Shown: piece after piece, positions 47,710 to 63,968 of the stretch
How positions within the stretch are numbered: the first letter of the stretch is position 1
How the letters are laid out: each line of letters starts with the position of its first letter
Origin: a virus
Reading direction: 5' to 3' (one strand)
Length of the DNA: 64,000 bases
IMG/VR virus record: IMGVR_UViG_3300017917_000529
Span: 1 to 64,000 of that record
The notes under the pieces: generated by a model
What the model saw: only the letters and a program-made list of their open reading frames with translations
Told to the model about the DNA's origin: nothing
The model's database searches: none
Made by a program: the position numbers and the translations under genes

Positions 47710-47718
47710 ATTTTATCA
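47710..47718 (-). promoter_or_regulatory. Extended -10 promoter of the appendage gene
   Basis: TGA-TAAAAT with a 15-base leader holding AGGAGA before ATG 47694. It sits in the short gap after the prolyl-hydroxylase-like gene. Confidence 0.5.
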
Positions 47719-48246
47719 TATTTTCCTTGTAAACCAGCGTGGTAATGTAAATCTTGTTCCATCAATAATTGGCTTTACACCATGTATGAAATTTGGATTA
47801 TCTGGAAAGCATAATAGATCTCCAGGTTTTGGCTTATATGAAATTTTGTATTTTGGAAAATATATGTCTCCGCCCTCATACTCATCATTTAAATAAACAA
47901 GTGTTGCTATGTCTAATGGTCTAGAAGCATCGTAGTGTTCATGCATTCCCCTGCCTTTTTCAAATTTGGCAATGTGTGTTTTTTCTTCTATAAAGTTTTC
48001 AAAGTTTACAGAGTATTCAGAAATAACAAATTTATAGACTCTTTTTGCTACATCTTGAATTATTTTAAGTATCTCTTTATCATTTTCAAGTATTTCATTG
48101 TACGTATGTACCTTAAATTCTTGCTCAGTATTTCCAAAATCAGTAAAAGAATCTAAATGATTTTTAGCATAATTAGACACAGAAATAGCATCATTATAAT
48201 TCATAAAACCACCAATGTACTTTATCTGGTTTATATATTCTTCCAT
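47716..48246 (-). CDS. Prolyl-4-hydroxylase-like 2OG-Fe(II) oxygenase
   Basis: A 176-residue dioxygenase. The ligands are HEHYDASRP (HxD, about residue 103) and NFIHGVKPI (distal His, about 155), followed by TRFTLPRWF with an Arg at the usual spacing for 2-oxoglutarate binding. YEGGDIYFPK lies between them, as in the PF13640 type. It is spaced six bases from nrdJ and belongs with it. A Pro/Lys hydroxylase for the collagen-like or other virion proteins is one possibility; no direct evidence. Confidence 0.82.
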   Translation of the reverse strand: MEEYINQIKYIGGFMNYNDAISVSNYAKNHLDSFTDFGNTEQEFKVHTYNEILENDKEILKIIQDVAKRVYKFVISEYSVNFENFIEEKTHIAKFEKGRGMHEHYDASRPLDIATLVYLNDEYEGGDIYFPKYKISYKPKPGDLLCFPDNPNFIHGVKPIIDGTRFTLPRWFTRKI

Positions 48247-50364: not shown

Positions 50365-50493
50365 TTAGTGAAAAGACATTGCTGTATGTTTTTTTGGACT
50401 ACAACGTTCACATAACACATATGTGTTTTTTGTATATGGACAAGTTGTACTTTTTATTTTATGTCCAAAAATTAAACAAAAAAGTTTTTTCAA
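50365..50493 (-). CDS. Small DUF1660-like zinc protein
   Basis: A 42-residue protein read from a TTG that overlaps the stop of the oxygenase gene. KKLFCLIFGHKIK followed by a Cys (TTCPY) and LCERCS matches the pattern of the short prophage family DUF1660: an N-terminal C...GHK and a downstream CxxC zinc site. TTG initiation and lack of a clear ribosome-binding site are the weak points. It accounts for most of the gap between the oxygenase and nrdJ genes. Confidence 0.5.
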   Translation of the reverse strand: MKKLFCLIFGHKIKSTTCPYTKNTYVLCERCSPKKHTAMSFH

Positions 50494-51119
50494 GGTAGTG
50501 GAACCCAGTGTTGTAATTTATCTCCACTCATATGTGTAAGTGGGGAAATATCATAAGCAATAGTTATTCTTGGTTTATTAAATAACCAAGGCCCTATACC
50601 ATGTGGATGACCAGTTTCAGATAAAATAGCCCTATTATTTTTATTAATATTTTCTACTGGCTTTGCATCGTGTCCACCAATTTTATAATAAGTAATAGAT
50701 GGTTCAGCATCTACGCAATAATAGCCATGAAAATTAGGAGCACCTGTTCCACCTAAATGATCATGATAGTGTGTTGATTCATTTATTGCTGGATCTTCCA
50801 TACCATCTGTATTAAACCAACCTTGAACCATATACGATTGTTTTGTATAATCAATTCCATAATATTCACATGCCTCTTTTGTCATATCTCTAAGTGCAGA
50901 AAAAAGTTTATGAATTTGTGGATTATAGCATTGAAAAATATTAAACTTTGTTCCTAGATTATGAACACCTTGCACAGTACTAGCAAACTCTTTAGATATT
51001 TTTGGATATACTCCAGCAAATAAATCTTTTTCTAGTTTTAATAAATATGCTGATAACTGTGTTAAATCATTATCAAGATATTTTTCAAAAAACCTATGAG
51101 GAAGTTTTGAATTTATCAT
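50490..51119 (-). CDS. PF13759-like 2OG-Fe(II) oxygenase, copy B
   Basis: About 209 residues from the ATG at 51119, which forms an ATGA overlap with copy A. An extension to 51224 is rejected because it would read through that gene. HYHDHLGG gives the HxD-like ligands and GHPHGIGPW the distal His. NFHGYYCVDAEPS and PRITIAYDIS are shared with copy A. It resembles the putative 2OG-Fe(II) oxygenases common in large marine and freshwater phages. Cytoplasmic. Substrate unknown. Confidence 0.75.
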   Translation of the reverse strand: MINSKLPHRFFEKYLDNDLTQLSAYLLKLEKDLFAGVYPKISKEFASTVQGVHNLGTKFNIFQCYNPQIHKLFSALRDMTKEACEYYGIDYTKQSYMVQGWFNTDGMEDPAINESTHYHDHLGGTGAPNFHGYYCVDAEPSITYYKIGGHDAKPVENINKNNRAILSETGHPHGIGPWLFNKPRITIAYDISPLTHMSGDKLQHWVPLP

Positions 51120-51781
51120 ATTAATGGAATCCAGTGTTGTTCGTGTTGTCTTCCAACATATTTTAATTCTTCTAGTGTCATAACATCGTATGCCACTGTA
51201 ATTCTTGGACCATCCCAAGTCCAATCTCCTTGAGCATGTGGATGACCCATTTCAGAATATATAGCACGATTATCTATATTTTTATTTTCTACATCTTTAC
51301 CAAAAACTCTATAATATGTTGTTGAAGGTTCTGCTTTTACACAGTAATATCCATGAAAATTATCTGGAGCACCAGTATGACCATGATCATGCCAATCTAA
51401 CTTTCCTTTTTTAGCATAATTTATATTAAACCATCCCTGTAACATATATTTCTTTTTTTCAAAATCAATTTCATAATACTCACATGCTTCTTTAGCCATA
51501 TCTTTAATATTTTTATATAACTCATATATACCTTCTATATGAAATTGAAAAACATTGTATTCTCTCCATTTAACAGTAGAAATACTACCAGACTCTACCC
51601 AAAAATCCTTATTGTTAACTGGAGTGATTCCGTCTAGTTCTACTTTTTCAATACTTTGATATCTATCGATTAGTTCATTTGCTAATAAATCTAAATCATT
51701 ATTTAAATATCTTTCAAAAAATTTATGTGGCTTGGTTGATTCTTGAATACCACGTAATTCTGGTGGTGGACCTTGTCTCAT
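51116..51781 (-). CDS. PF13759-like 2OG-Fe(II) oxygenase, copy A
   Basis: A 221-residue protein. LDWHDHGHTGAP gives candidate iron ligands, GHPHAQGDW the distal His, and PRITVAYDV the strand with the likely 2-oxoglutarate Arg. FHGYYCVKAEPSTTYYRV is nearly identical in style to copy B, so the two are tandem paralogues. AGGAAAA and an extended -10 precede the ATG. It lies just downstream of a Hint-domain virion protein. Confidence 0.77.
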   Translation of the reverse strand: MRQGPPPELRGIQESTKPHKFFERYLNNDLDLLANELIDRYQSIEKVELDGITPVNNKDFWVESGSISTVKWREYNVFQFHIEGIYELYKNIKDMAKEACEYYEIDFEKKKYMLQGWFNINYAKKGKLDWHDHGHTGAPDNFHGYYCVKAEPSTTYYRVFGKDVENKNIDNRAIYSEMGHPHAQGDWTWDGPRITVAYDVMTLEELKYVGRQHEQHWIPLI

Positions 51782-51830: not shown

Positions 51831-53084
51831 TTAATCTGGTATTTCTGAAGGAGAGTAGTCGTTATAATGAACTAGCCCACCTGCTATAACCAAACCAATT
51901 GGATATCTTCCAAAACTATAAACAGTTCTAGTTTCATTAATAACTTCAACATTATCTATTACAACTAATGAATCTCTTGTTATTATTTTATCTCCAGGCT
52001 TAATATCTCTTGATGAAATAAATTGATATAAACCATTTTTAACAACAAACATGTCTTCTAACAAAGAAAATCTCATATCTGGGTTATTATTAAATTGTAC
52101 AGTTTCGTGAACAACTGTTGGTGTAATTTTTGTTACTTCTGCTTCTAACTCTCTATAGTTAGTTAAATTACCACTTTTTTTCCATAGAACAATTTTAAAT
52201 AAATCTCCGACAGGCATTTCTTCAAATGCTTTTACTATCAACTTATCTCCAAGTTGAATATCTTTTGCTTTTTTATTTCCAGTTGTTGTAAGAACTGGGG
52301 CATCTTCGTCTACACAATATGTAGTTGGTGAAAAACCAAATACTCTGAATGGAGAGAATCCAAATACTCTAAAAGGTGAAAAACCAAAAACGTTGAATGG
52401 TGAGAAACCAAATACGTTAAATGGTGAGAAACCAAATACTGTAAAAGGTGAGAAACCAAACACACCAAACGGAACGAAAGAAAATGTTGTAGTAACTGAT
52501 GCTGAGTAATCTGAAAATTCTGAATCACCATTAGCATTGGTTGCTTCAACTCTATATTGTTGTGATGTTCCTGCTTCTTGTGATACTGTTACGCTTGTTG
52601 AAGTTCCTGTGTTTCCTGATTTACCGTCGTTTGATTCCCAGTAATAGTTGGTAATTGCTTTTCCACCATTTGCTGGTGCACTCCACGAAACTTGATCTTG
52701 ATCAGCGTTTGGAGATGATGCACTTGGTGCTGATGGTTTTGCTGGAACTGTTGTTGCTGTAATAGAATTAGAAACTTCAGATGATCCAGATGTTCCATAT
52801 TGATTGGTTGCGGTAACTGTAAAAGTATAAGATGTATCAGATTGTAAACCTGTTACTGTGATTGGAGATGAAGATCCAGTTGCTGTATAATTTCCTGGAT
52901 TTGATGTAACTGTAAAAGAATCTGCAGCGTACGTAGGGTCTGCTGTAAATGTTACTGTTGCTGCACCATTATTAAATGGTCTGGCTGTTCCAACATCAGT
53001 TGCTGTGCCAATTGTTGGTGCTTTTGGCATAAGAAAGTCATTTGCACCTTGTGATTTCTTACCACTCTTTTTACCTACTGCCAT
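51831..53084 (-). CDS. Fn3 - VFGFSPF repeat - Hint domain virion protein (A)
   Basis: A 417-residue protein. After a basic N-terminus come two fibronectin type III domains (about residues 28-110 and 115-200; typical YTATGSSSPITVTGLQ and TSYTFTVTATNQYG). Then comes a tract of six VFGFSP units spaced every eight residues (about 208-253). The rest is a Hint (hedgehog/intein) fold: YCVDEDAPVLTTTGNKKAKD (block A, Cys1), SSRDIKPGDKII, TVYSFGRYPIGLVIAGGLVHYND (block F/G region). The block B position reads FSLLED in place of TxxH. Autoprocessing or cross-linking to a surface is possible. It has a paralogue at 60133. Confidence 0.8.
   Translation of the reverse strand: MAVGKKSGKKSQGANDFLMPKAPTIGTATDVGTARPFNNGAATVTFTADPTYAADSFTVTSNPGNYTATGSSSPITVTGLQSDTSYTFTVTATNQYGTSGSSEVSNSITATTVPAKPSAPSASSPNADQDQVSWSAPANGGKAITNYYWESNDGKSGNTGTSTSVTVSQEAGTSQQYRVEATNANGDSEFSDYSASVTTTFSFVPFGVFGFSPFTVFGFSPFNVFGFSPFNVFGFSPFRVFGFSPFRVFGFSPTTYCVDEDAPVLTTTGNKKAKDIQLGDKLIVKAFEEMPVGDLFKIVLWKKSGNLTNYRELEAEVTKITPTVVHETVQFNNNPDMRFSLLEDMFVVKNGLYQFISSRDIKPGDKIITRDSLVVIDNVEVINETRTVYSFGRYPIGLVIAGGLVHYNDYSPSEIPD
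52326..52463 (-). repeat. 24-bp coding repeat (VFGFSPFx), six units
   Basis: Five full 24-base units plus a partial one encode VFGFSP-F-x. The variable residue x runs T, N, N, R, R from N- to C-terminus. The tract is exactly 138 bases, the same length as the second copy at 60646-60783. Confidence 0.9.
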
Positions 53085-53104
53085 CTTATCTCCTTGTTTC
53101 TTTT

Positions 53105-53113
53105 ATTATACCA
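53105..53113 (-). promoter_or_regulatory. Extended -10 promoter of Hint protein A
   Basis: TGG-TATAAT, then a leader of 20 bases with AGGAGAT before ATG 53084. Confidence 0.6.
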
Positions 53114-53118
53114 AGTCT

Positions 53119-54870
53119 TTATGCAGACAAATCTCCGTATACTACCCAGGTATTTTCTGCTCTCTTAAATAATGTTGCTGAAGACCATTGTGCTCTTAAT
53201 TTTAATCCAGGTGTAGCATTTACTGTTACTCCTGATGCTCCTGCAATTGTTACTTGACCTGCACCTGTTTGTAGAATATCTAAAGATGTTCCTATTGGAA
53301 ACGCTACTGCACTATTAAGTGGAATTGTTACTGTTGTTGCACTGGCATTAGACATTTCAATCAAAGAATCTCTTTCGGTTAATGCTGACAGAGTGTAACT
53401 TGCTGTTTTTTGTATAATTGGAGTTCTTGAAGGAACACCCTCTTTTGTTTGAGATCCATCTGTAAATGTTACACCAGAAGCAGAAACTACTGTATTTCCA
53501 GTTACTGTTATATCTGCTACGAACAAATCGTTTAATTCTAAGTCATCTAATAAGGCTTGTCCAAAGTCAACTGTTGTTGTTGGTTCTGTACCATATCCTT
53601 CAAAAAATTTCCATCTATCTGCTGATACGTCTCTTACGATACCAGCGTGTAAGTTTGATCCATTATTATAAGCAACTACCAAACCTAAGTCAACTGTATT
53701 TGCTGGATTTTCATGAGCAAGTTGAACCATATTATCTTCAATTGTTATAGATGTTGCACTAGCAGCAAAAGAATTACCATTTACTGTTATGTCGTTATCT
53801 ACAACTAAATTTCCGTTAATTGTTAGGCTACCAGTTAATGTTTGAGTATTTGCATCAGTTAATACAATCTTTGTTGTATCTGCAATACCGTGAACATTTG
53901 AAGTATCAAGATTGTGATCTTCTATTTGTGAAGCAGCATTTGACACAGCGTTTGAAAAAACATTTGCTGATTTTTCGTCTACGTATGTTGTTGTTGATAA
54001 TGCTAAAGTGTTTGATATACCATGAACATTTGCTGTATCATCTAAATGTGTTTGAATTTCTCCATCAACATATGTGATTGTTGCTAATGCTAAGGTATTT
54101 GCTATACCGTGAACACTATCTGTTTCAAGATTATGATTTGAAACAGCATCGTCTGCATATGCTTCTAAATCTGTTATTGCATTTGCTATAGATTGTGAAA
54201 GAGAATCTTCTACTCCATCAGTATATGATTGTGCATTTCCTAAAGTAAAGGCAGCAACGTTATCTGTATATGCTTCTGATGTTGTTATAGCATTTGCTAT
54301 TTCACCTTGTAGGCTAGATACAGCATTTGCAAGATTATTAGCAGTTAATTCTTCTGCTAGGTCTAATTGATCTGAAATATTATTTGAAAGTATATTTATG
54401 TTATTATCTGTATAATCATTGGCAGCATCTAAACTAGTATTAATAGAATTTGATATTGTTAAGAAAAATTCTCCATCGTTATTTAATGCGTTTGCTAATT
54501 CAGCAAGGGTATCTAGTATAAGTGGTGCATTATTTGTTATATCTGCTATAGCATTTGAAACTAAATTTGTTACATCTGAACTTCTAGCAATATTATTTGA
54601 AATCTGTGCATCTGGAATTAAATTACTTCCGTCTAATGTGGCAACACCATTAGCAGAACCTTTTTCGGTTAATAAAATATAATCGTCTAAACTTCCGCCT
54701 AGATCTTCTAAATTCTTAAAGTATGATAGGTCGTCCCAGTTACTGGTACCGTCTCCAATTTTAAATTGTCCTGTGTCGGTTTCAAAACCAATTTCACCTG
54801 CACCTAATACTGGATTTGCGTTGGCCCATTGAGCCTCTGTTCCTCTGCGTTGGAGCATTCTTGTTGCCAT
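53119..54870 (-). CDS. Tail fibre with Mtd_N-type head domain
   Basis: A 583-residue fibre. The N-terminus RRGTEAQWANANPVLGAGEI then GFETDTGQFKIGDGTSNW matches the head-attachment domain of the major tropism determinant (Mtd_N) found in many phage fibres. A long helical stalk with SNAI and YTDN repeats follows. A shared C-terminal cap (FPIGTSLDIL...NTWVVYGDLSA) is also present in the protein at 61060. Probable receptor-binding or side fibre. Confidence 0.75.
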   Translation of the reverse strand: MATRMLQRRGTEAQWANANPVLGAGEIGFETDTGQFKIGDGTSNWDDLSYFKNLEDLGGSLDDYILLTEKGSANGVATLDGSNLIPDAQISNNIARSSDVTNLVSNAIADITNNAPLILDTLAELANALNNDGEFFLTISNSINTSLDAANDYTDNNINILSNNISDQLDLAEELTANNLANAVSSLQGEIANAITTSEAYTDNVAAFTLGNAQSYTDGVEDSLSQSIANAITDLEAYADDAVSNHNLETDSVHGIANTLALATITYVDGEIQTHLDDTANVHGISNTLALSTTTYVDEKSANVFSNAVSNAASQIEDHNLDTSNVHGIADTTKIVLTDANTQTLTGSLTINGNLVVDNDITVNGNSFAASATSITIEDNMVQLAHENPANTVDLGLVVAYNNGSNLHAGIVRDVSADRWKFFEGYGTEPTTTVDFGQALLDDLELNDLFVADITVTGNTVVSASGVTFTDGSQTKEGVPSRTPIIQKTASYTLSALTERDSLIEMSNASATTVTIPLNSAVAFPIGTSLDILQTGAGQVTIAGASGVTVNATPGLKLRAQWSSATLFKRAENTWVVYGDLSA

Positions 54871-54911
54871 TTTTTATTTTCTCCTATAGGAAATTACCTA
54901 TTTCTTTTTAT

Positions 54912-54917
54912 ATTATA
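54912..54917 (-). promoter_or_regulatory. -10 box ahead of the Mtd_N-type fibre
   Basis: TATAAT in the 56-base gap before ATG 54870, with a 41-base leader holding AGGAGAA. The TG extension is absent (AGT). Confidence 0.4.
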
Positions 54918-54926
54918 ACTTATTTT

Positions 54927-55382
54927 TTAATTATATTCATCACTTGGTGTTCCACCATCAAACACTGTAGCCCATGTATTAGAAAATGGTGTTCCGCCAC
55001 TTAGTGTTGATATTTGTGGATCATTATATTGTGCTGAATCCCAAAAAATAGTTGTAATTCTTCCGTCTCCATCAATTGCTTCATCATGAATGTGATCTGG
55101 AATATTTTGAACATCATTGCTTGTTGCAATTGTATACCAATCACCTTCATAATAAATTTTTAATCTTTCAACGAAAGTGTCAAACCACATATCACCATTG
55201 TCTGGTGAAGAAGGGGCAGTATTGCCAACAGGAGTTGATCCTGCAACAGCATCGACATAGTCTTTAGTAGCAGCGTGGTCACCTAATGTTGGTGTTGCAA
55301 CTGTTACAGTGCCACCAAACGAACCTCCGTTTGTTACGTATAACCCATTTTTGACTTTGAAGTCTTTATTAAATGTAGTCAT
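54927..55382 (-). CDS. Short fibre/adaptor protein
   Basis: A 151-residue protein with the attachment start FNKDFKVKNGLYVTNGGS, also seen in the next gene upstream. A central NGDMWFDTFVERLKIYYEGDW resembles tail-fibre segments that read DGTLWxDT...KIY. The C-terminus is Asp/Gly rich. It would be a small fibre subunit or adaptor. Confidence 0.6.
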   Translation of the reverse strand: MTTFNKDFKVKNGLYVTNGGSFGGTVTVATPTLGDHAATKDYVDAVAGSTPVGNTAPSSPDNGDMWFDTFVERLKIYYEGDWYTIATSNDVQNIPDHIHDEAIDGDGRITTIFWDSAQYNDPQISTLSGGTPFSNTWATVFDGGTPSDEYN

Positions 55383-55409
55383 TTACTGCCCCCTATTTTT
55401 TTTATTAAG

Positions 55410-56999
55410 TTATGCTAACAAAGTTCCAACAACTGTAACTGTGCTGTTATTATTTGCTGTTGTTGCTAATAAGCGAACATTTCCAGAGTTAATATCTGCA
55501 CTAATTGATGCTGCTGAACCATTTGTTCCAACAATTGCATATTCTGTGATTGCAATGTTGTCTGATGTATCAAGAGTTAATAAAACTTTTGAAACTTCAG
55601 TGTGTGTTGAGTAAGCAACCTTAACCAAAAATTCTGCTGATCTGTAATCTGCTTTTGGCCAAGAGAATGCTGTTTGAACTCCTGCTGTAGGTGCACTCAA
55701 TGTTGCTGCAACTACTTTTGCAAGACTATCAATCTCTACTTCTGTAAAATTAGGAACAACTGCTTCTAAAGCATCTACTGCACGTTGGTCAGTAAAGTAT
55801 AGATTGGTTGTACCTTCTGCTAAATCATCAGTATCTGAGTCAGCAACACCGTTTTCTGCGGTAATTACCAATCCTGCAGAGTTACCTGTGATTGTAATAT
55901 TTGTTAATGTTGCATTTGTCAACAAATCTGCTGCAGAAGACTTAGCACGAGCATCTGTGAAGTATTCGTTGCTTGTTCCTTCTTCAATATCATCTGTTGT
56001 TAATGCTCCAATTTCTGTATCTGTGTAAGATACTGCGTTAGAGTATGCATTTGCTGCTGCTCCTGCTGCGTCATAGTTTGTTGCCAAACCATCTGCATAA
56101 GATTGTGCGTTTGATAAAGCATTTGCTGCTGCTGAATCTGCATAATCTTCAGCGTCTGCTAAGGCATTTGCTGCAGATCCTAGTGGATCATAACTTCCAG
56201 TAAAGGAAATTGTATTTCCTGTAATGCTAATATCTGTTCCTGCTGTTAATGCATTTTGTTTTTCTGCAATTAAATTAGTTACAGTTCCAACAAAGTTTGC
56301 ATCATCACCAATTGCTGCTGCAATTTCATTAAGTGTATCTAATAATGCTGGTGCACTATCTACTAACGCTGCAATTGCATTATCTGTATAATCTTCTGAA
56401 TAAGATATTGCATTTGAGTAAGCATTTGCTGCTAAACCTGCTGCATCGTAATTAATTGCTAATCCATCTGCGTAATTTTCTGCTGCTGATTGAGCATTTG
56501 CTGCTGCACTATCTGCATAAGATTGTGCGTTTGATAAAGCATTTGCTGCTGCACTATCTGCATAAGATTGTGCGTTTGATAAAGCGTTTGCTGTTGCACT
56601 ATCTGCATAATCTTCTGCATCTGCTAAAGCGTTTGCAGCAGAACCTGCTGGATCGTACATACCAGAAAGTGCATCTTGTGCTCTTTGATTTGTAAAATAT
56701 TTATTTGTTGTACCTTCATCTAAATCATCTGTATCGAAGTTTGAGATGTCTGATACTTGACCAGTTACATCACCAACAAGATCTGCTGTGATTACGTTTG
56801 CAGAAAAGTTTGCACTTCCGTCACGTAATACAACAGTGTTTGCTGTTGCGTTTGCGGTTGCTGATCCACCAATAAGACCAATAATATAATTTTGGTCATC
56901 TTGCTTCTTTGTAAGAACGTCGTAGCCACCAATGGTACCTGTGGAACCTTCAACGACCAGACCATTCTTAATCTTGAAGTTCTTTGCTATTGTTGCCAT
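55410..56999 (-). CDS. Repeat-rich tail fibre
   Basis: A 529-residue fibre starting KNFKIKNGLVVEG. The stalk is a chain of 15-residue repeats (SYADSAAANALSNAQ) and larger blocks (EDYADSAAANAL, YDAAGLAANAYSNA). The motif DDLDEGTTNKYFTNQRAQDAL recurs in variants (DDIEEGTSNEYFTDARAK, DDLAEGTTNLYFTDQRAVDAL). The C-terminal about 100 residues form a separate beta domain. Trimeric coiled-coil architecture is likely. The repeats invite length variation by slippage. Confidence 0.72.
   Translation of the reverse strand: MATIAKNFKIKNGLVVEGSTGTIGGYDVLTKKQDDQNYIIGLIGGSATANATANTVVLRDGSANFSANVITADLVGDVTGQVSDISNFDTDDLDEGTTNKYFTNQRAQDALSGMYDPAGSAANALADAEDYADSATANALSNAQSYADSAAANALSNAQSYADSAAANAQSAAENYADGLAINYDAAGLAANAYSNAISYSEDYTDNAIAALVDSAPALLDTLNEIAAAIGDDANFVGTVTNLIAEKQNALTAGTDISITGNTISFTGSYDPLGSAANALADAEDYADSAAANALSNAQSYADGLATNYDAAGAAANAYSNAVSYTDTEIGALTTDDIEEGTSNEYFTDARAKSSAADLLTNATLTNITITGNSAGLVITAENGVADSDTDDLAEGTTNLYFTDQRAVDALEAVVPNFTEVEIDSLAKVVAATLSAPTAGVQTAFSWPKADYRSAEFLVKVAYSTHTEVSKVLLTLDTSDNIAITEYAIVGTNGSAASISADINSGNVRLLATTANNNSTVTVVGTLLA
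56473..56650 (-). repeat. 45-bp tandem repeats in the fibre gene
   Basis: Two near-identical 45-base units (15 residues each) occur in tandem, with diverged copies on both flanks and another block near 56095-56170. They encode the Ala/Ser/Asn-rich fibre stalk. Confidence 0.8.
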
Positions 57000-57012
57000 C
57001 TATATCTTCTCC

Positions 57013-57459
57013 TTATGCCTTAAGTCCTATACGTGCGTAACGTACAGTGACTGGCTTTATAATTGCGTCTGGTGTTACAGTTAAAGCAACTGTATCTCCA
57101 GCCCTTGAGACGCTTATGGTGCCAATATTCCCATCATTGTCTATCGTTCCGTATTCGCTAACGTTTATATTTGTTCCGTCAACTAATATGGTTAACTCTG
57201 TTGCGTAAAAGTAATTATCTCCTTGCGTGGTTTTTGCAATAGAAATTATGTACTTTACCATTCTCCACTCTGCTGCACTAAAACTATCAATTACTGTAAC
57301 ATTTTCAATTCCTGTAATAGTGTTGTCATTATTTCCAAATGTTCCCAGTCTAGTAGCCTGAGCAGCCGTGGTATCAATTAAATCTTCGTAATCCTGTTGA
57401 GATGGCCTATCGCCTGTCTCGTATCTGGATTTTACTGTTGAAATGGATACTTGTGCCAT
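57013..57459 (-). CDS. Fibre-module structural protein
   Basis: About 148 residues (MAQVSISTVKSRYETGDRP on). The ATG at 57459 lies six bases after TGT-TATAAT, so it is leaderless. The upstream ATG at 57477 overlaps that promoter and is rejected. The protein has a short N-terminal helix (YEDLIDTTAAQA) then a beta sandwich (ATELTILVDGTNINVSEYG, VTVRYARIGLKA), similar in plan to C-terminal fibre domains nearby. Structural role inferred. Confidence 0.6.
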   Translation of the reverse strand: MAQVSISTVKSRYETGDRPSQQDYEDLIDTTAAQATRLGTFGNNDNTITGIENVTVIDSFSAAEWRMVKYIISIAKTTQGDNYFYATELTILVDGTNINVSEYGTIDNDGNIGTISVSRAGDTVALTVTPDAIIKPVTVRYARIGLKA

Positions 57460-57474
57460 GTTTAGATTATAACA
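57460..57474 (-). promoter_or_regulatory. Leaderless extended -10 promoter
   Basis: TGT-TATAAT (57474-57466), then six bases to ATG 57459. There is no room for a leader or Shine-Dalgarno sequence. Confidence 0.7.
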
Positions 57475-57496
57475 CATTTTTAACTAAAAAATGTTA

Positions 57497-58222
57497 TTAT
57501 CTAAATATATAACTTCCTATATGAACTACTTTAACATAAGGTGCAACGTATACTGTTCCACCAAGTTCTCTCCAAAGTGTACAAAAAAAATAATCTTCAG
57601 ATAAAAGTCTTTCTTCTTTAGGATCTACCTGTGTTTTCCAAAAATCATGTATATACTCACCTTTTTTAATTCCACCTAAATCTAATTGATCGCTTTTATA
57701 TTTTCCAACATGTTCTTTCATCTTTTCAAAAACATTACGTTTAATCAACATCATTCCAGTTCCAACATTTTTTACTTTTAAAAGTTGTTTTGGGTTTTCT
57801 GCAACCTGTTTTAAGTCTTCTGAATTTATTAAATTTATATTTACGTAAGCACCATATCTACTTAGATCTTCTTTTTTTGATTCTGCTGCTTTTTGAATAT
57901 TTTTCCAATTAATTGCTTTCATTGGAACGGCAGCACCAACTAAATCAACATCCTCTTTTATCATTTCTATAACATGATCAGAGTTAAACCCTTCATCCCC
58001 ATCTACAAACAATAAATAATCACAATCAGATCTTAAGAATATTTCAGTCAATGTATTTCTTGCCCTATTTATAAGTGATTCATTATACAAATCATTAAAA
58101 CTAACCCTATATCCCTGGGTAGTTAATTTTAAAACCAAACTTAATATACTTTTTGTAAACATACCACTACATTGACCACCATACATAGGGGTTGCTATAA
58201 ATATTTTTGGTTTTTTATCCAT
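57497..58222 (-). CDS. GT-A-type glycosyltransferase-like protein
   Basis: A 241-residue protein. PKIFIATPMYGG opens a nucleotide-sugar binding fold, SLINRARNTLTEIFL follows, and DYLLFVDGDEGF provides the DxD metal-binding motif. LLSEDYFFCTLWRELGG is a typical C-terminal acceptor-side motif. Such enzymes are common in large phages and could glycosylate virion proteins, modified DNA or host surface sugars. Its location among fibre genes makes virion glycosylation the simplest reading. Confidence 0.78.
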   Translation of the reverse strand: MDKKPKIFIATPMYGGQCSGMFTKSILSLVLKLTTQGYRVSFNDLYNESLINRARNTLTEIFLRSDCDYLLFVDGDEGFNSDHVIEMIKEDVDLVGAAVPMKAINWKNIQKAAESKKEDLSRYGAYVNINLINSEDLKQVAENPKQLLKVKNVGTGMMLIKRNVFEKMKEHVGKYKSDQLDLGGIKKGEYIHDFWKTQVDPKEERLLSEDYFFCTLWRELGGTVYVAPYVKVVHIGSYIFR

Positions 58223-58234
58223 AGGTATATTCTA
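58223..58234 (-). promoter_or_regulatory. Possible leaderless -10 box of the glycosyltransferase
   Basis: TAGAAT, six bases, then ATG 58222. TG directly precedes the box with no spacer base. Weak but fits the genome-wide pattern. Confidence 0.35.
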
Positions 58235-58456
58235 CATTATGTAGTTGCTATATCCAATAACTTGTAGTGGGATTGGGGGGACATTATTTGGACCATACCC
58301 AGGAACTTTTATATTAGTAAATCTAATTCTAAATGGAAGCCTGTATTCTATTTCTACCGTTATTGGTTTGTATATAACTTTAGCAGTTTTTACTTTATCA
58401 GTATCAATTGTTTTTACTTTATGCTTTATATCGTCAAAAATTATTGCTGTTGCCAT
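58232..58456 (-). CDS. Small virion-module protein
   Basis: A 74-residue protein. Charged N-terminal half and a hydrophobic beta-type C-terminus (IEYRLPFRIRFTNIKVPGYG). The start overlaps the previous stop (TAATG). No family recognised. It may be a fibre chaperone or a minor subunit. Confidence 0.5.
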   Translation of the reverse strand: MATAIIFDDIKHKVKTIDTDKVKTAKVIYKPITVEIEYRLPFRIRFTNIKVPGYGPNNVPPIPLQVIGYSNYIM

Positions 58457-58863
58457 TAGTCAGTTACATCTTCAAGAATTATCATACTACCCTGAGCAAC
58501 TGTCCATACAATTTCTGATGTTGATAATTCTATATCAAATATATCTCCAGTTTCTAATTGAACTGATTCCTCTGCTGTAAGTCCTACTGTAAATTCTCCT
58601 GCTAAATCATCTGCATCTGCCGCAGGTGTTAAAGTTAAGATAACTGTAGCATCATCAGTAATTTTACCTAGGTTTTCAGTACTATTTGGTCTTTTAATTT
58701 TCATAGCAATATCCCAGTCTGGAATATTTAATGGTTGTTCTTCATCATCAGTTACATAAACCTTAAATCCAGAAGTATCTCCACGAACTACAGTCCATTC
58801 AACTGTTGGTGGTTTTAAACCTACTTCATAAAAAGATTTTGCAGAATTTCTTAAAATTGCCAT
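58456..58863 (-). CDS. BppU-like baseplate/fibre N-terminal domain protein
   Basis: A 135-residue beta-sandwich protein: WTVVRGDTSGFKVYVTDDEEQP, then WDIAMKIKRP, and TGDIFDIELSTSEIVWTVAQGS. This order (a polarised strand with RGDTxxF, a middle strand, a final strand with I.....QGxMxI) is that of the BppU N-terminal type domain in baseplate upper proteins. Leaderless start. Confidence 0.6.
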   Translation of the reverse strand: MAILRNSAKSFYEVGLKPPTVEWTVVRGDTSGFKVYVTDDEEQPLNIPDWDIAMKIKRPNSTENLGKITDDATVILTLTPAADADDLAGEFTVGLTAEESVQLETGDIFDIELSTSEIVWTVAQGSMIILEDVTD

Positions 58864-58878
58864 ATGGTAATTATATCA
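58864..58878 (-). promoter_or_regulatory. Leaderless extended -10 promoter
   Basis: TGA-TATAAT (58878-58870), six bases, ATG 58863. Same geometry as at 59423, 57459 and 35702. Confidence 0.72.
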
Positions 58879-58895
58879 TCTTATTGATTTTAAGA

Positions 58896-59423
58896 TTATG
58901 ATAAACCGTTTTTTAATGCTCCCCAGGTACCATTACCTTTAGCAGTAACTACAAGAACTCCATTAGATGCATCTGCATAAGCACAAACTGCTACTGCACC
59001 AGCACCACTGGCTGGTCTAACATTTGTTAATCCTCCACCAGTTTTTACATATAAAATATCACCAGCAACAAATTCAGATGTGTTGACGTCTGGCAATACT
59101 CCAGATACAACACAAATTCCTTGTGAATTATTTGATGTTGTTGATTTTAACAATCCTAATATTGGTGCTGTTGTTGATGGAATTGCTTTATCAACGGTAG
59201 TTAAATCTTGTTCAGTATTGTGACCATTAATAAATACAGGAGATCCTGCTGCTATTGATCCACCAGATGTATTTATTACATCTAACTTCATGTAAGATAA
59301 TCCAAGTCCAGCAAGAGTGCTATCTAATGAATTTGCTAAAGATGCAATATCTCCGTGAACATTTACACTATCATCAACTTGTGGATAGGGTAAATTATAT
59401 ATGCTAGATTGTCCTGTTGCCAT
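58896..59423 (-). CDS. Small virion protein (fibre-module)
   Basis: A 175-residue protein. A short helical N-terminus (DIASLANSLDSTLAGLG) is followed by a beta-rich capsid- or fibre-decoration-type fold: PVFINGHNTEQDL, TAPILGLLKSTT, FVAGDILYVKTGGGL. The last motif is common in phage minor structural proteins. Leaderless start. Confidence 0.6.
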   Translation of the reverse strand: MATGQSSIYNLPYPQVDDSVNVHGDIASLANSLDSTLAGLGLSYMKLDVINTSGGSIAAGSPVFINGHNTEQDLTTVDKAIPSTTAPILGLLKSTTSNNSQGICVVSGVLPDVNTSEFVAGDILYVKTGGGLTNVRPASGAGAVAVCAYADASNGVLVVTAKGNGTWGALKNGLS

Positions 59424-59438
59424 AGAAATATTATATCA
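59424..59438 (-). promoter_or_regulatory. Leaderless extended -10 promoter
   Basis: TGA-TATAAT (59438-59430), six bases, ATG 59423. It lies back to back with the plus-strand lysozyme promoter, so the 140-base gap holds two divergent promoters. Confidence 0.72.
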
Positions 59439-59485
59439 TTTTAAATAATTTTTTGTATTATCTTACTAAAATATAATACATATAT

Positions 59486-59514
59486 TTGACATAAGGGTAA
59501 ATTAATGTTATACT
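59486..59514 (+). promoter_or_regulatory. Consensus promoter for the lysozyme unit
   Basis: A perfect -35 TTGACA (59486-59491), a 17-base spacer, and TATACT (59509-59514) with the extended TG-T. This is the strongest promoter in the window and the only clear one on the plus strand. The predicted start is 59521, the A of the leader ATG. Confidence 0.88.
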
Positions 59515-59520
59515 TGATAT

Positions 59521-59551
59521 ATGACACCAACCAAGGTGTCATGTTTTTCTT
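59521..59551 (+). promoter_or_regulatory. Stem-loop at predicted +1 of the lysozyme mRNA
   Basis: A perfect 8-bp stem (ATGACACC / GGTGTCAT) with a 6-base loop (59529-59534), followed by GTTTTTCTT. It has the look of an intrinsic terminator. However, at the very 5' end of the RNA it may instead act as a stabilising 5' hairpin or a translation switch for the leader peptide. Confidence 0.7.
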
Positions 59552-59553
59552 AG
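59521..59553 (+). CDS. Ten-residue leader peptide
   Basis: ATG six bases after the -10 opens a frame encoding MTPTKVSCFS and stops at TAG 59551-59553. The stop overlaps the AGGAGG site of the lysozyme gene, so termination would place a ribosome at the lysozyme start. The start codon and first five codons form the 5' stem described below. Whether it is translated is not known. Confidence 0.5.
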   Translation: MTPTKVSCFS

Positions 59554-59563
59554 GAGGAAAACT

Positions 59564-60136
59564 ATGAAAAAAGATAAAACATTTTTAATAGGAATACTCG
59601 CAAGTGTGGTCGCATTATCAGTTAGTTTTAACATAGCAAATGCTAAGGCTATTGAAAGTACGCCCAAAAAAGAAGATTTTGCAAGATATACCGCTCAAGC
59701 GGTTTTTTTGCTTTCTGTAGAGAATAATGATCACTACACAGAAGAAGATATTAAAGTGCTATCTAAGTATGAAGATCATGTTCAATTTAATGATTTAGAA
59801 CTTAAAGAGTTTTTAGGTGCTTGTGGATTTAAGGGTCGTAGACTTATGGAAGCATGGGCTATAGTTAAAAAAGAGTCTATGGGAAACGCCTTAAGTTTTA
59901 ATGGTAATTCTAAAACTGGAGATAAATCATATGGATTGTTTCAAATTAATATGATTGGAGACCTTAATGCTGACAGAAAAGAAAAATATGATTTAGATTA
60001 TGCCAGTCAGTTATTAAATCCAGTTATAAATTGTCAAGTTGCATATTTAATGAGTAAAAATGGAGAAAACTGGGGACCTTGGAAGGGTTTAACTTCTAGA
60101 ACTAGAGAATTTATGTATAAATTTCCAAAAGATTAA
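59564..60136 (+). CDS. Secreted lysozyme / lytic transglycosylase-like protein
   Basis: A 190-residue exported protein. The signal peptide is KKDKTFLIGILASVVALSV with an ANA-K cleavage-type site. The SLT/lysozyme-like domain has the candidate catalytic Glu in AIVKKESMGN (about residue 103), SYGLFQINM in the substrate groove, and a closing NGENWGPWKG. It would cut host peptidoglycan. The Sec signal means it can reach the wall without a classical holin. It is the only large gene on the plus strand and has its own promoter. AGGAGGA lies six bases before the ATG. No conserved holin is visible in the window. Confidence 0.82.
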   Translation: MKKDKTFLIGILASVVALSVSFNIANAKAIESTPKKEDFARYTAQAVFLLSVENNDHYTEEDIKVLSKYEDHVQFNDLELKEFLGACGFKGRRLMEAWAIVKKESMGNALSFNGNSKTGDKSYGLFQINMIGDLNADRKEKYDLDYASQLLNPVINCQVAYLMSKNGENWGPWKGLTSRTREFMYKFPKD

Positions 60137-61050
60137 TCTATTGGATAAGCATTATATACAAATAAAGAATCTGCCACTATAAGACCAAATGGTTCTCTTA
60201 TAAAATCATAAACTTTTCTTTTTTCTTGTATAATTTCTATTTTTTCAACATAGTATAATTCACTATCATTTATCTGTTCTTTATTTCTAACTATTTGATC
60301 ATTTTTCTTTAATTCAGATGAAACAATAAAAATTAATTTATTATCTCTTAAAACTAAAATATCTTCTTGAGTAGAAAATCTTTTAAATTTATCTCCATTA
60401 ACAATAACTGTTTCAAATACTTCTGTTTCTTTAATATTTTTTATTTCAGCAACAAGATCTTCATATTCAATATTAGTTTCAGAATTCCATTCTCTAATAC
60501 CTTCGTGATTTGTAAGTGGAATATTTTTAAAATATTTAACTATTAACTTATCATCCATTGTTATATCTTTTGCTAAAATATAACCTTTTTCTGTTAAAAC
60601 AGGGGTGTCTTGGTCTATACAATATGGAGTAAAACTATATGTTACTGGTGAGAACCCAAATACTCTAAAAGGTGAAAATCCAAAAACGTTAAATGGAGAA
60701 AAACCAAAAACATTAAAAGGAGAAAACCCAAAAACATTAAAAGGAGAAAATCCGAATACTGTAAATGGTGAAAATCCAAATACTCCAAATGGCACAAAAC
60801 TAAATTGTCTAACTGTTAAATCAACTGGGGTTTCATAATCTGCTGGTGTGGTAACTGCTGGAACTTGTTCAACAATTTTTCCATCATTTTCTAATTCTGT
60901 TGGTTCACCAGAAACAGATGTAACAACATTTCCTAGAGTAAAACCTTCTGAAACAACGTCTGATTGAGCCTGTGCACTTGTTCTTCCAATAAAGTTAGGA
61001 ACTAGTTTCATTCCTTTGGCTATAACATATTTGACTAATTTTCCAAACAT
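60133..61050 (-). CDS. PASTA - VFGFSPF repeat - Hint domain virion protein (B)
   Basis: A 305-residue paralogue of the protein at 51831. It begins with a basic helix, then a PASTA domain (about residues 17-82: LVPNFIGRTSAQAQSDVVSE, ending VDLTVRQ), a module that binds peptidoglycan. Then come six VFGFSP units (about 90-135) and a Hint fold starting YCIDQDTPVLTEKGYILAKD with Cys1. The block B position reads FSTQED, and the C-terminus ends SLFVYNAYPID with no His before Asn. The two families share repeats and Hint but differ in the N-terminal ligand domain. The stop is shared with the lysozyme gene. Confidence 0.8.
   Translation of the reverse strand: MFGKLVKYVIAKGMKLVPNFIGRTSAQAQSDVVSEGFTLGNVVTSVSGEPTELENDGKIVEQVPAVTTPADYETPVDLTVRQFSFVPFGVFGFSPFTVFGFSPFNVFGFSPFNVFGFSPFNVFGFSPFRVFGFSPVTYSFTPYCIDQDTPVLTEKGYILAKDITMDDKLIVKYFKNIPLTNHEGIREWNSETNIEYEDLVAEIKNIKETEVFETVIVNGDKFKRFSTQEDILVLRDNKLIFIVSSELKKNDQIVRNKEQINDSELYYVEKIEIIQEKRKVYDFIREPFGLIVADSLFVYNAYPID
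60646..60783 (-). repeat. 24-bp coding repeat (VFGFSPFx), six units, second copy
   Basis: Same length and same amino-acid units as the tract at 52326-52463, with x running T, N, N, N, R. Codon choices differ between the copies and between units, so the amino-acid sequence, not the DNA, is being kept. Confidence 0.9.
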
Positions 61051-63224: not shown

Positions 63225-63968
63225 TTATGACACTGAGATATACATGCTTTTTAATAAATAAGAGGCATCATAATCTGATTTAATATAAGCATTACAGTAG
63301 TTAAACCACATATCTTTATTTTCAACATAAATGGTTTGATCAAAACTTATATCATATATTCCTTGATATTTAAAATATCCTAATTGACCAAGGTTTGACT
63401 TATCTAATTCTTGATAAACTGTTGCAATCCATACCTCTGTATGATTTACTAATATTTCTAGTTGTATGTTATAGGTAACTTTTACTACAGAACCAATTTC
63501 TAAGCCTCTAAATGTAAAAGATCTTGTTTCTTCGTTATATAAGGCATTACATCCTTTTGGTAAAAAATTATGATTTTTTTTAATACTGTGTTTGTCAATT
63601 AATAATTGATGCCATCCATTTTCTCCTCTATTGGGATTTATTGTATGTATCCTACTAGATGTATTATGATAACTAGCCCATCCAAGTTGTTGGTTATAGG
63701 TAGAACCTAGTCCCTCTTTTCCATCTTTACCATCTTTTCCATCTTTTCCATCAATACCATTTTTTCCATCTTTTCCTTTTGGTCCTGGATCACCTTTTGG
63801 TCCTTGTGGACCTTCTGGTCCCCTATCACCTTTTGGTCCTACTAAACCTTGTTCTCCTTGAGGTCCTGGTACTGGCAAGAATTGTAGTTGTGGTTGATTT
63901 TCATCTGAATAAATTTTTGGTTTTTCTTTTTCTTGAATAGGAAAACCCATACTTCGTGTTATTGGCAC
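63225..63968 (-). CDS. Collagen-like fibre protein
   Basis: A 247-residue protein. The N-terminal 35 residues are an adaptor. Residues about 36-90 are Gly-X-Y triplets rich in Pro, Lys, Asp and Gln (GPQGEQGLVGPKGDRGPEG and on, then KDGKDGKDG). The rest is a C-terminal beta head (YNQQLGWASYHNTSSRIHTI, IYVENKDMWFNYCNAY) that may trimerise and bind a receptor. The start is GTG with GGAGG upstream. The bases right of 63968 hold only the upstream AT-rich leader. Confidence 0.78.
   Translation of the reverse strand: MPITRSMGFPIQEKEKPKIYSDENQPQLQFLPVPGPQGEQGLVGPKGDRGPEGPQGPKGDPGPKGKDGKNGIDGKDGKDGKDGKEGLGSTYNQQLGWASYHNTSSRIHTINPNRGENGWHQLLIDKHSIKKNHNFLPKGCNALYNEETRSFTFRGLEIGSVVKVTYNIQLEILVNHTEVWIATVYQELDKSNLGQLGYFKYQGIYDISFDQTIYVENKDMWFNYCNAYIKSDYDASYLLKSMYISVS

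Follow-up and report, generated by a model that had tools for sequence, protein, structure and literature searches.

The 64,000-nucleotide stretch of viral DNA analysed here (hereafter the window; positions 1–64,000 of the IMG/VR record IMGVR_UViG_3300017917_000529) encodes two proteins, A and B, which carry different folded heads followed by a common Phe/Pro-rich tract and a C-terminal Hint domain, and which recur as a pair in related virus records where their C-terminal ends vary together. Hint domains are familiar from inteins, from Hedgehog processing and from bacterial intein-like (BIL) domains. The reading we favour, with a probability of roughly 45%, is that A and B represent a conserved pair of tail-region stalk or adhesin-like proteins with a BIL/Hedgehog-type autoprocessing Hint cap. 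A matched Hint pair on such proteins in a large uncultured phage family would be a new setting for Hint chemistry.

Both genes are intact ORFs on the minus strand, located where the initial annotation had placed them. Protein A (417 aa, 51831..53084) begins with a head (52485..53084) consisting of the conserved N-terminus K..G.KSQGANDFLMP and two Fn3 domains, recognised by alignment, by Pfam (PF00041, E=1e-9 in two stretches, 38.9 bits against a cut-off of 25) and by Foldseek, in which Fn3 tandems were the structural matches. The tract (residues 201–255, 52320..52484) comes next, followed by the Hint domain (residues 257–417, 51834..52316), the Cys1 codon of which (residue 257) lies at 52314-52316 and the block-B Glu codon at 52056-52058. 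In protein B (305 aa, 60133..61050) the head is a PASTA domain (60811..61002; PF03793, E=1.8e-5, 25.1 bits against the curated cut-off of 23.2), the tract occupies residues 83–142 (60625..60804) and the Hint domain residues 144–305 (60136..60621), with the codons of Cys1 (residue 144) and the block-B Glu at 60619-60621 and 60364-60366, respectively. Six VFGFSP units were counted in each tract, as previously proposed, and the modular architecture of two Fn3 domains or PASTA joined to a common tract and Hint domain is confirmed by Pfam and by the sequences. A comparison with PHROGs gave weak tail matches for A and no match for B.

It is nearly certain that the C-terminal domain of both proteins has a true Hint fold, since three routes lead to it, namely a family profile searched against the PDB, AlphaFold modelling and Foldseek. 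Pfam recognises the domain of A only weakly (PF01079, E=0.13), and one family member reaches PF14890 with E=5.6e-6. The profile, built from 16 family members, found the BIL domain 2lwy (E=2.6e-6), which is the best match, the RadA intein 4e2u (1.2e-5) and also 6qaz, the cyanophage-like gp41-1 intein. As the Foldseek search with full-length A was swamped by Fn3 matches, the Hint domain of B was folded separately, resulting in a model with pLDDT 94.4 and pTM 0.88, which matched inteins, the Hedgehog domain 1at0 (TMt 0.69) and 2lwy (TMt 0.77). The claim of a Hint fold starting at a Cys is therefore borne out, and the possibility that no such fold would be predicted is ruled out. The window Hints are under purifying selection (dN/dS 0.08–0.50), and the idea of a freely decaying pseudo-domain was rejected on this ground.

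The tracts of A and B are nearly identical as proteins and just 77.6% identical as DNA, and across relatives the A tract shows dN values of 0.00–0.03 at dS values of 0.4–0.8, the strongest constraint within protein A, so the likeness of the two tracts is due neither to chance nor to recent DNA copying. A recent duplication of the window pair was likewise rejected due to the old synonymous divergence between the tracts. In the AlphaFold model of A the head and the Hint domain have a pLDDT of about 90, and the tract, with values below 50, is predicted to be disordered. Many tract dialects are used in the family (among them VFGFSPFx, GAFGFTPF, YSFTP, FFAPPG, FFSPPG, FFPPFFP and (FGA)n), and the B proteins of three genomes (G009-G011) have the non-aromatic repeats PPV, VTP or TP. 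Given the predicted disorder and this variety, the description of the tract as a fixed aromatic spring is unsupported. Only low-complexity chance matches were obtained for the tract in the PDB. The Phe/Pro stalk, strictly conserved as it is, is a puzzling material in its own right, carried by phages whose hosts appear to be freshwater actinobacteria.

The IMG/VR scans yielded 27 relatives of A and 10 of B. For the A-family alignment at least 538 related stretches were counted. Four main active-site states were distinguished in the family by sequence comparison: C1, T..H and a terminal HNK (11 proteins, in three of which the alignment misplaces the Cys1 visible in the sequences); S1, mostly with [ST]..H and an HD or FD terminus (about 20 proteins); C1 and ..Q, mostly with HN (10 proteins); and C1 and ..E (30 proteins), ending in HN in some and in HYN, VYN, YH or YG in the others. 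Across 73 Hints, position 1 is only Cys (49) or Ser (21) where aligned, and position 87 is limited to His, Glu or Gln in 72 of the 73, which points to restricted substitution and not free decay; the count over all Hints was used here, since Cys1 and Glu87 define the S..E class and finding them invariant within it is circular.

Both window Hints keep Cys1 and have S..E in block B, where the His is replaced by Glu, and both have altered the terminal His-Asn, A ending in HYN and B in VYN. In neither is there a C-extein with a +1 Cys, Ser or Thr, the protein ending at or shortly past the Hint domain. The domain thus shares with class 1 inteins the fold and the Cys/Ser1 and lacks the T..H of block B and the +1 nucleophile; splicing is impossible, and an active intein was rejected for this reason. 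The BIL domain 2lwy is similar in its fold and in having no +1 nucleophile, whereas the window copies, which have Cys1, lack the block-B His and the clean terminal His-Asn and sit on a phage stalk instead of bacterial proteins. Every sequence feature of BIL domains (Cys1, block-B His, terminal His-Asn, no +1 nucleophile) is found in the T..H clade (L044/L045/L046/L050/L086/L114/L128-L130), which has the same VFGFSPF tract and the full site C1, T..H, H-N-K-stop. The sequence before Cys1 in the T..H clade, Y-G-[VI]-[KR]/C (the slash marks the junction), is conserved in 10 of 11 proteins, whereas in the more diverged window class the –1 residue varies (Y, F, R, V, L, I, A or S), being Tyr in both window copies.

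These altered sites can be set against what is known of functional ones. In class 1 inteins the N-terminal Cys/Ser and the C-terminal Asn/Gln/Asp are the only omnipresent residues (PMC7664689), and working inteins may lack the block-B or penultimate His through compensation (PMC7664689, PMC6333167); in vitro, the loss of the block-B His can be offset by a bulky –1 residue (PMC6333167). BIL domains lacking a +1 nucleophile mainly perform cleavage, and Hedgehog proteins use the N-S shift alone (PMC7664689).

The distinct A proteins that were classified comprise 48 with a C-terminal Hint domain, about 8 that stop at the tract (L070, L077, L083, L099, L100, L107, L110 and L113) and 5 with a short Cys-rich tail; the list also includes the frame-shifted gene L080 and the false entry L105. 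In L080 (2305-3637) the A tract and the Hint are in different frames, which is either an assembly error or a real frameshift. Short Cys-rich tails such as GCSGCARSYCWQACPSCCGSCGC replace the Hint domain in L108, L109, L112, L116, L091, L141 and L142. In L138/L139 the B protein stops at the tract, and about 10 nt downstream a Hint-like gene of its own begins (E about 6e-6). Such a gene is also found after B in L125 (weak, E=0.02) and in L127 (E=6e-5), and L137 contains another stand-alone one. As read by eye, the stand-alone genes near B have no Cys1 nucleophile. Capping or chaperoning would fit these arrangements, as head with tract and Hint are separate polypeptides in some lineages, and the absence of Cys1 suggests that the Hint fold is also useful without cleavage chemistry.

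In the favoured reading, the head of each protein (Fn3 in A, PASTA of the cell-wall type in B) is folded and leads through a disordered Phe/Pro-rich stalk to the Hint domain, which would fold at the C-terminal end and hold the sticky stalk soluble through synthesis and assembly. The Hint would then break the peptide bond before Cys1 by an N-S acyl shift, the thioester being hydrolysed or captured, and the stalk would be left as the new C-terminus. Autoprocessing is supported by genes that encode equivalents of the cleavage products (A proteins that stop at the tract, and the L138/L139 B with its separate Hint-like gene), by the full-site clade with the VFGFSPF tract and conserved junction and another clade with S1, [ST]..H and H-D, and by the purifying selection on the window Hints. 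A self-releasing cap also has a precedent in the S74 chaperone, a self-releasing C-terminal folding and assembly domain on low-complexity tail proteins (PMC7824862). The altered block-B and terminal residues of the window copies, the variable –1 residue and the stand-alone genes lacking Cys1 beside B count against it. Autoprocessing is likely somewhere in the family, and in the window's own copies it has an even chance or less. With Cys1 kept, block-B His changed to Glu and the terminal His-Asn altered, the window reaction, if still running, would be N-terminal cleavage only and would need compensation, perhaps from the bulky Tyr at –1; the chemistry may have changed and is possibly lost. The ability to cleave or to form an ester or thioester, proposed in the initial annotation, is consequently least secure for the window's own copies. 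The family is also a natural experiment, with full, Ser1/Asp, Glu/Gln block-B, stand-alone and Hint-free versions, and because all site variants occur with related heads and stalks, one protein panel could reveal the residues needed.

A serious but more tentative explanation is that the window Hint is non-catalytic and stays attached, capping, trimerising or chaperoning the stalk or binding a partner, with the catalytic residues as relics. The loss of the block-B His and the altered terminal His-Asn in both window copies would agree with this, as would the Hint-like genes devoid of Cys1 that adjoin B in several genomes, and purifying selection is equally consistent with a structural role. It accounts less well for the presence of Cys1 or Ser1 in every fused Hint where aligned, for the limitation of block B to His, Glu or Gln and for the complete sites in related lineages carrying the same tract.

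The pairing of A and B, which like the fold is near certain, was evident from a Hint profile search, in which exactly two Hints were found in 16 of 22 virus records, some of them near-identical to each other. The two copies are mostly 8–12 kb apart (about 5.6 kb in G012/G013), and one copy is weak in G017. The second copy is B, with the PASTA head detected by Pfam in G000, G005 and G009, below the cut-off in G014 and recognised by eye in the remaining B proteins read; the B protein of G012/G013 carries an additional long N-terminal region. Most A relatives share the N-terminus K..G.KSQ..NDFL.P and the Fn3 head. As A is always of the Fn3 type and B of the PASTA type in the genomes examined, the heads are not freely swappable as had been suggested. 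They form two fixed orthologous types, and it is the tract that, jointly with its Hint, becomes homogenised or replaced. In L013 and L038, which belong to one phage (1548 bp overlap at 100%), the tract and Hint DNA is 97.3% identical over 631 bp under unrelated A and B heads, and the grouping in a tree of 28 Hints follows the genome lineage more than the distinction between A and B (supports of 100/100 for G012 A+B and 100/99 for G014 A+B, L013/L038 being identical), with other lineage-wise groups within which A and B then separate. It is thus the tract and Hint end, not the head, that is exchanged between A and B.

In 9 of 11 lineages A and B have the same C-terminal class, an agreement that none of 200,000 permutations equalled, and the tract dialect matches within genomes (1/5040 permutations, one genome per lineage) with the exception of G009-G011; both tests rest on a manual grouping of the lineages and on their independence, which is only approximate. 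The matching classes comprise six Hint classes, the Cys-rich tail of G031 (L091/L141) and the bare tract ends of G024/G025 (...SPPFR in each protein) and G027/G028, and mismatches occur in G021 and G026. This agreement in C-terminal type and dialect supports the cap reading. It might instead be a by-product of recombination, repetitive tract DNA converting the C-terminal ends with no functional coupling, as repeats are natural recombination seams and the L013/L038 ends are so alike beneath unrelated heads. We regard this as rather unlikely, because the A and B tracts of G009-G011 are repeats unrelated to each other and the Hints still match by class and lineage, the synonymous divergence in the window pair is old, and where the fused Hint has been lost, A and B have both lost it.

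The favoured cleavage could also end in transfer as in Hedgehog proteins, a nucleophile of the partner stalk, the virion or the host envelope attacking the Cys1 thioester so that head and stalk become covalently attached. The window domain resembles the Hog domain 1at0 in its fold and in being a C-terminal Hint with Cys1 and no C-extein, A and B have the same C-terminal class throughout the Hint-bearing lineages, and the alternative Cys-rich tails could be another cross-linking solution. Such transfer is nevertheless improbable, being entirely inferential, as the 161–162-aa Hint ends the protein with no sterol-recognition-like region after it, no acceptor is known and the block-B His is missing in the window. 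Still less probable is the speculative extension in which paired stalks are matured by alternative-site Hints (Cys1 with Glu or Gln for the block-B His) and their freed or activated ends become covalently linked to one another, to the virion or to the host surface, as a Hedgehog-like self-modification in a phage tail.

The closest annotated analogue of the A/B system is Phage NCTB (LT598654.1; 'intein domain' proteins BN7874_136, _135 and _132), which like the family has two Hint-bearing tail-region proteins and one stand-alone Hint gene. Its tail cluster (93362-106114, L150) encodes a collagen-like protein with a C-terminal Hint, the stand-alone Hint and a 1305-aa protein with a C-terminal Hint, and three entries at ranks 5–7 of a viral fold search (A0A1C3NF88/FC5/FC6) have lengths equal to those of these three NCTB proteins. 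In NCTB, too, the Hint is C-terminal, with a Gly-rich linker in front of it. Unlike the window proteins, those of NCTB have no aromatic tract, their heads are collagen-like/Ig-like and Calx-beta-like by eye, and their Hints, 15–21% identical to the window Hint, have a block-B His (TEQH, TQQH) and a terminal HN. In tblastn searches of INPHARED no relative was found with A or the L019, L044 and L130 proteins as queries, L023 gave a single weak match, probably due to Fn3, and L093 matched Phage NCTB alone. A scan of 84,980 bacterial and archaeal genomes with two head motifs revealed no relative, leaving a prophage or host origin unsupported. UniProt contains, among its uncultured Caudovirales phage entries, three proteins that belong to the A/B family or are closely related to it (A0A6J5NY54, A0A6J5NYB8 and A0A6J7WKC1, with 58, 39 and 32% identity over the Hint), under the automatic single-domain names PASTA_pknB, Fibronectin type III and Hint domain, with no description of the A/B system. 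The S74 chaperone/autopeptidase of tail fibres and tailspikes is similar by analogy only, having an unrelated fold and Ser/Lys chemistry, and Pfam scans gave no match to that family. The open-access papers searched offer no description of the A/B pair or of the junction between repeat and Hint, and within that scope the pairing appears to be as novel as the initial annotation had supposed.

The hosts of these freshwater (lake) tailed phages are probably actinobacteria, as suggested by gene content: WhiB, an actinobacterial marker (PMC6802176), is above the cut-off in 7 of 12 family records, though not in the window's own 68,789-base record, and the window portal is 47% identical to those of Streptomyces phages, e.g. 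Coruscant. The genes near A and B are tail-fibre-like, which suggests that both proteins belong to the tail region of the virion. The tail-fibre-like gene at 53119-54870 encodes an Mtd_N domain (PF18454, E=3.9e-15), and a protein with collagen-like Gly-X-Y repeats is encoded at 63225-63968. The gene at 59564-60136 (+) codes for a lysozyme/SLT-like protein (PF18896, E=6.8e-12), a cell-wall enzyme adjoining the PASTA protein B; the two genes are convergent and their ends overlap by 4 nt, and in L146/L147 its position is taken by an NlpC/P60-like gene, as judged by eye. Downstream of A there is a 2OG-Fe(II) oxygenase-like gene (47716-48246; PF13640, E=7.2e-11), and two further CDSs (51116-51781 and 50490-51224) are oxygenase-like by sequence pattern with no Pfam match. 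Similar genes are found downstream of A in most relatives and, as they adjoin Pro-rich tracts, hydroxylation of the stalk is a testable idea.
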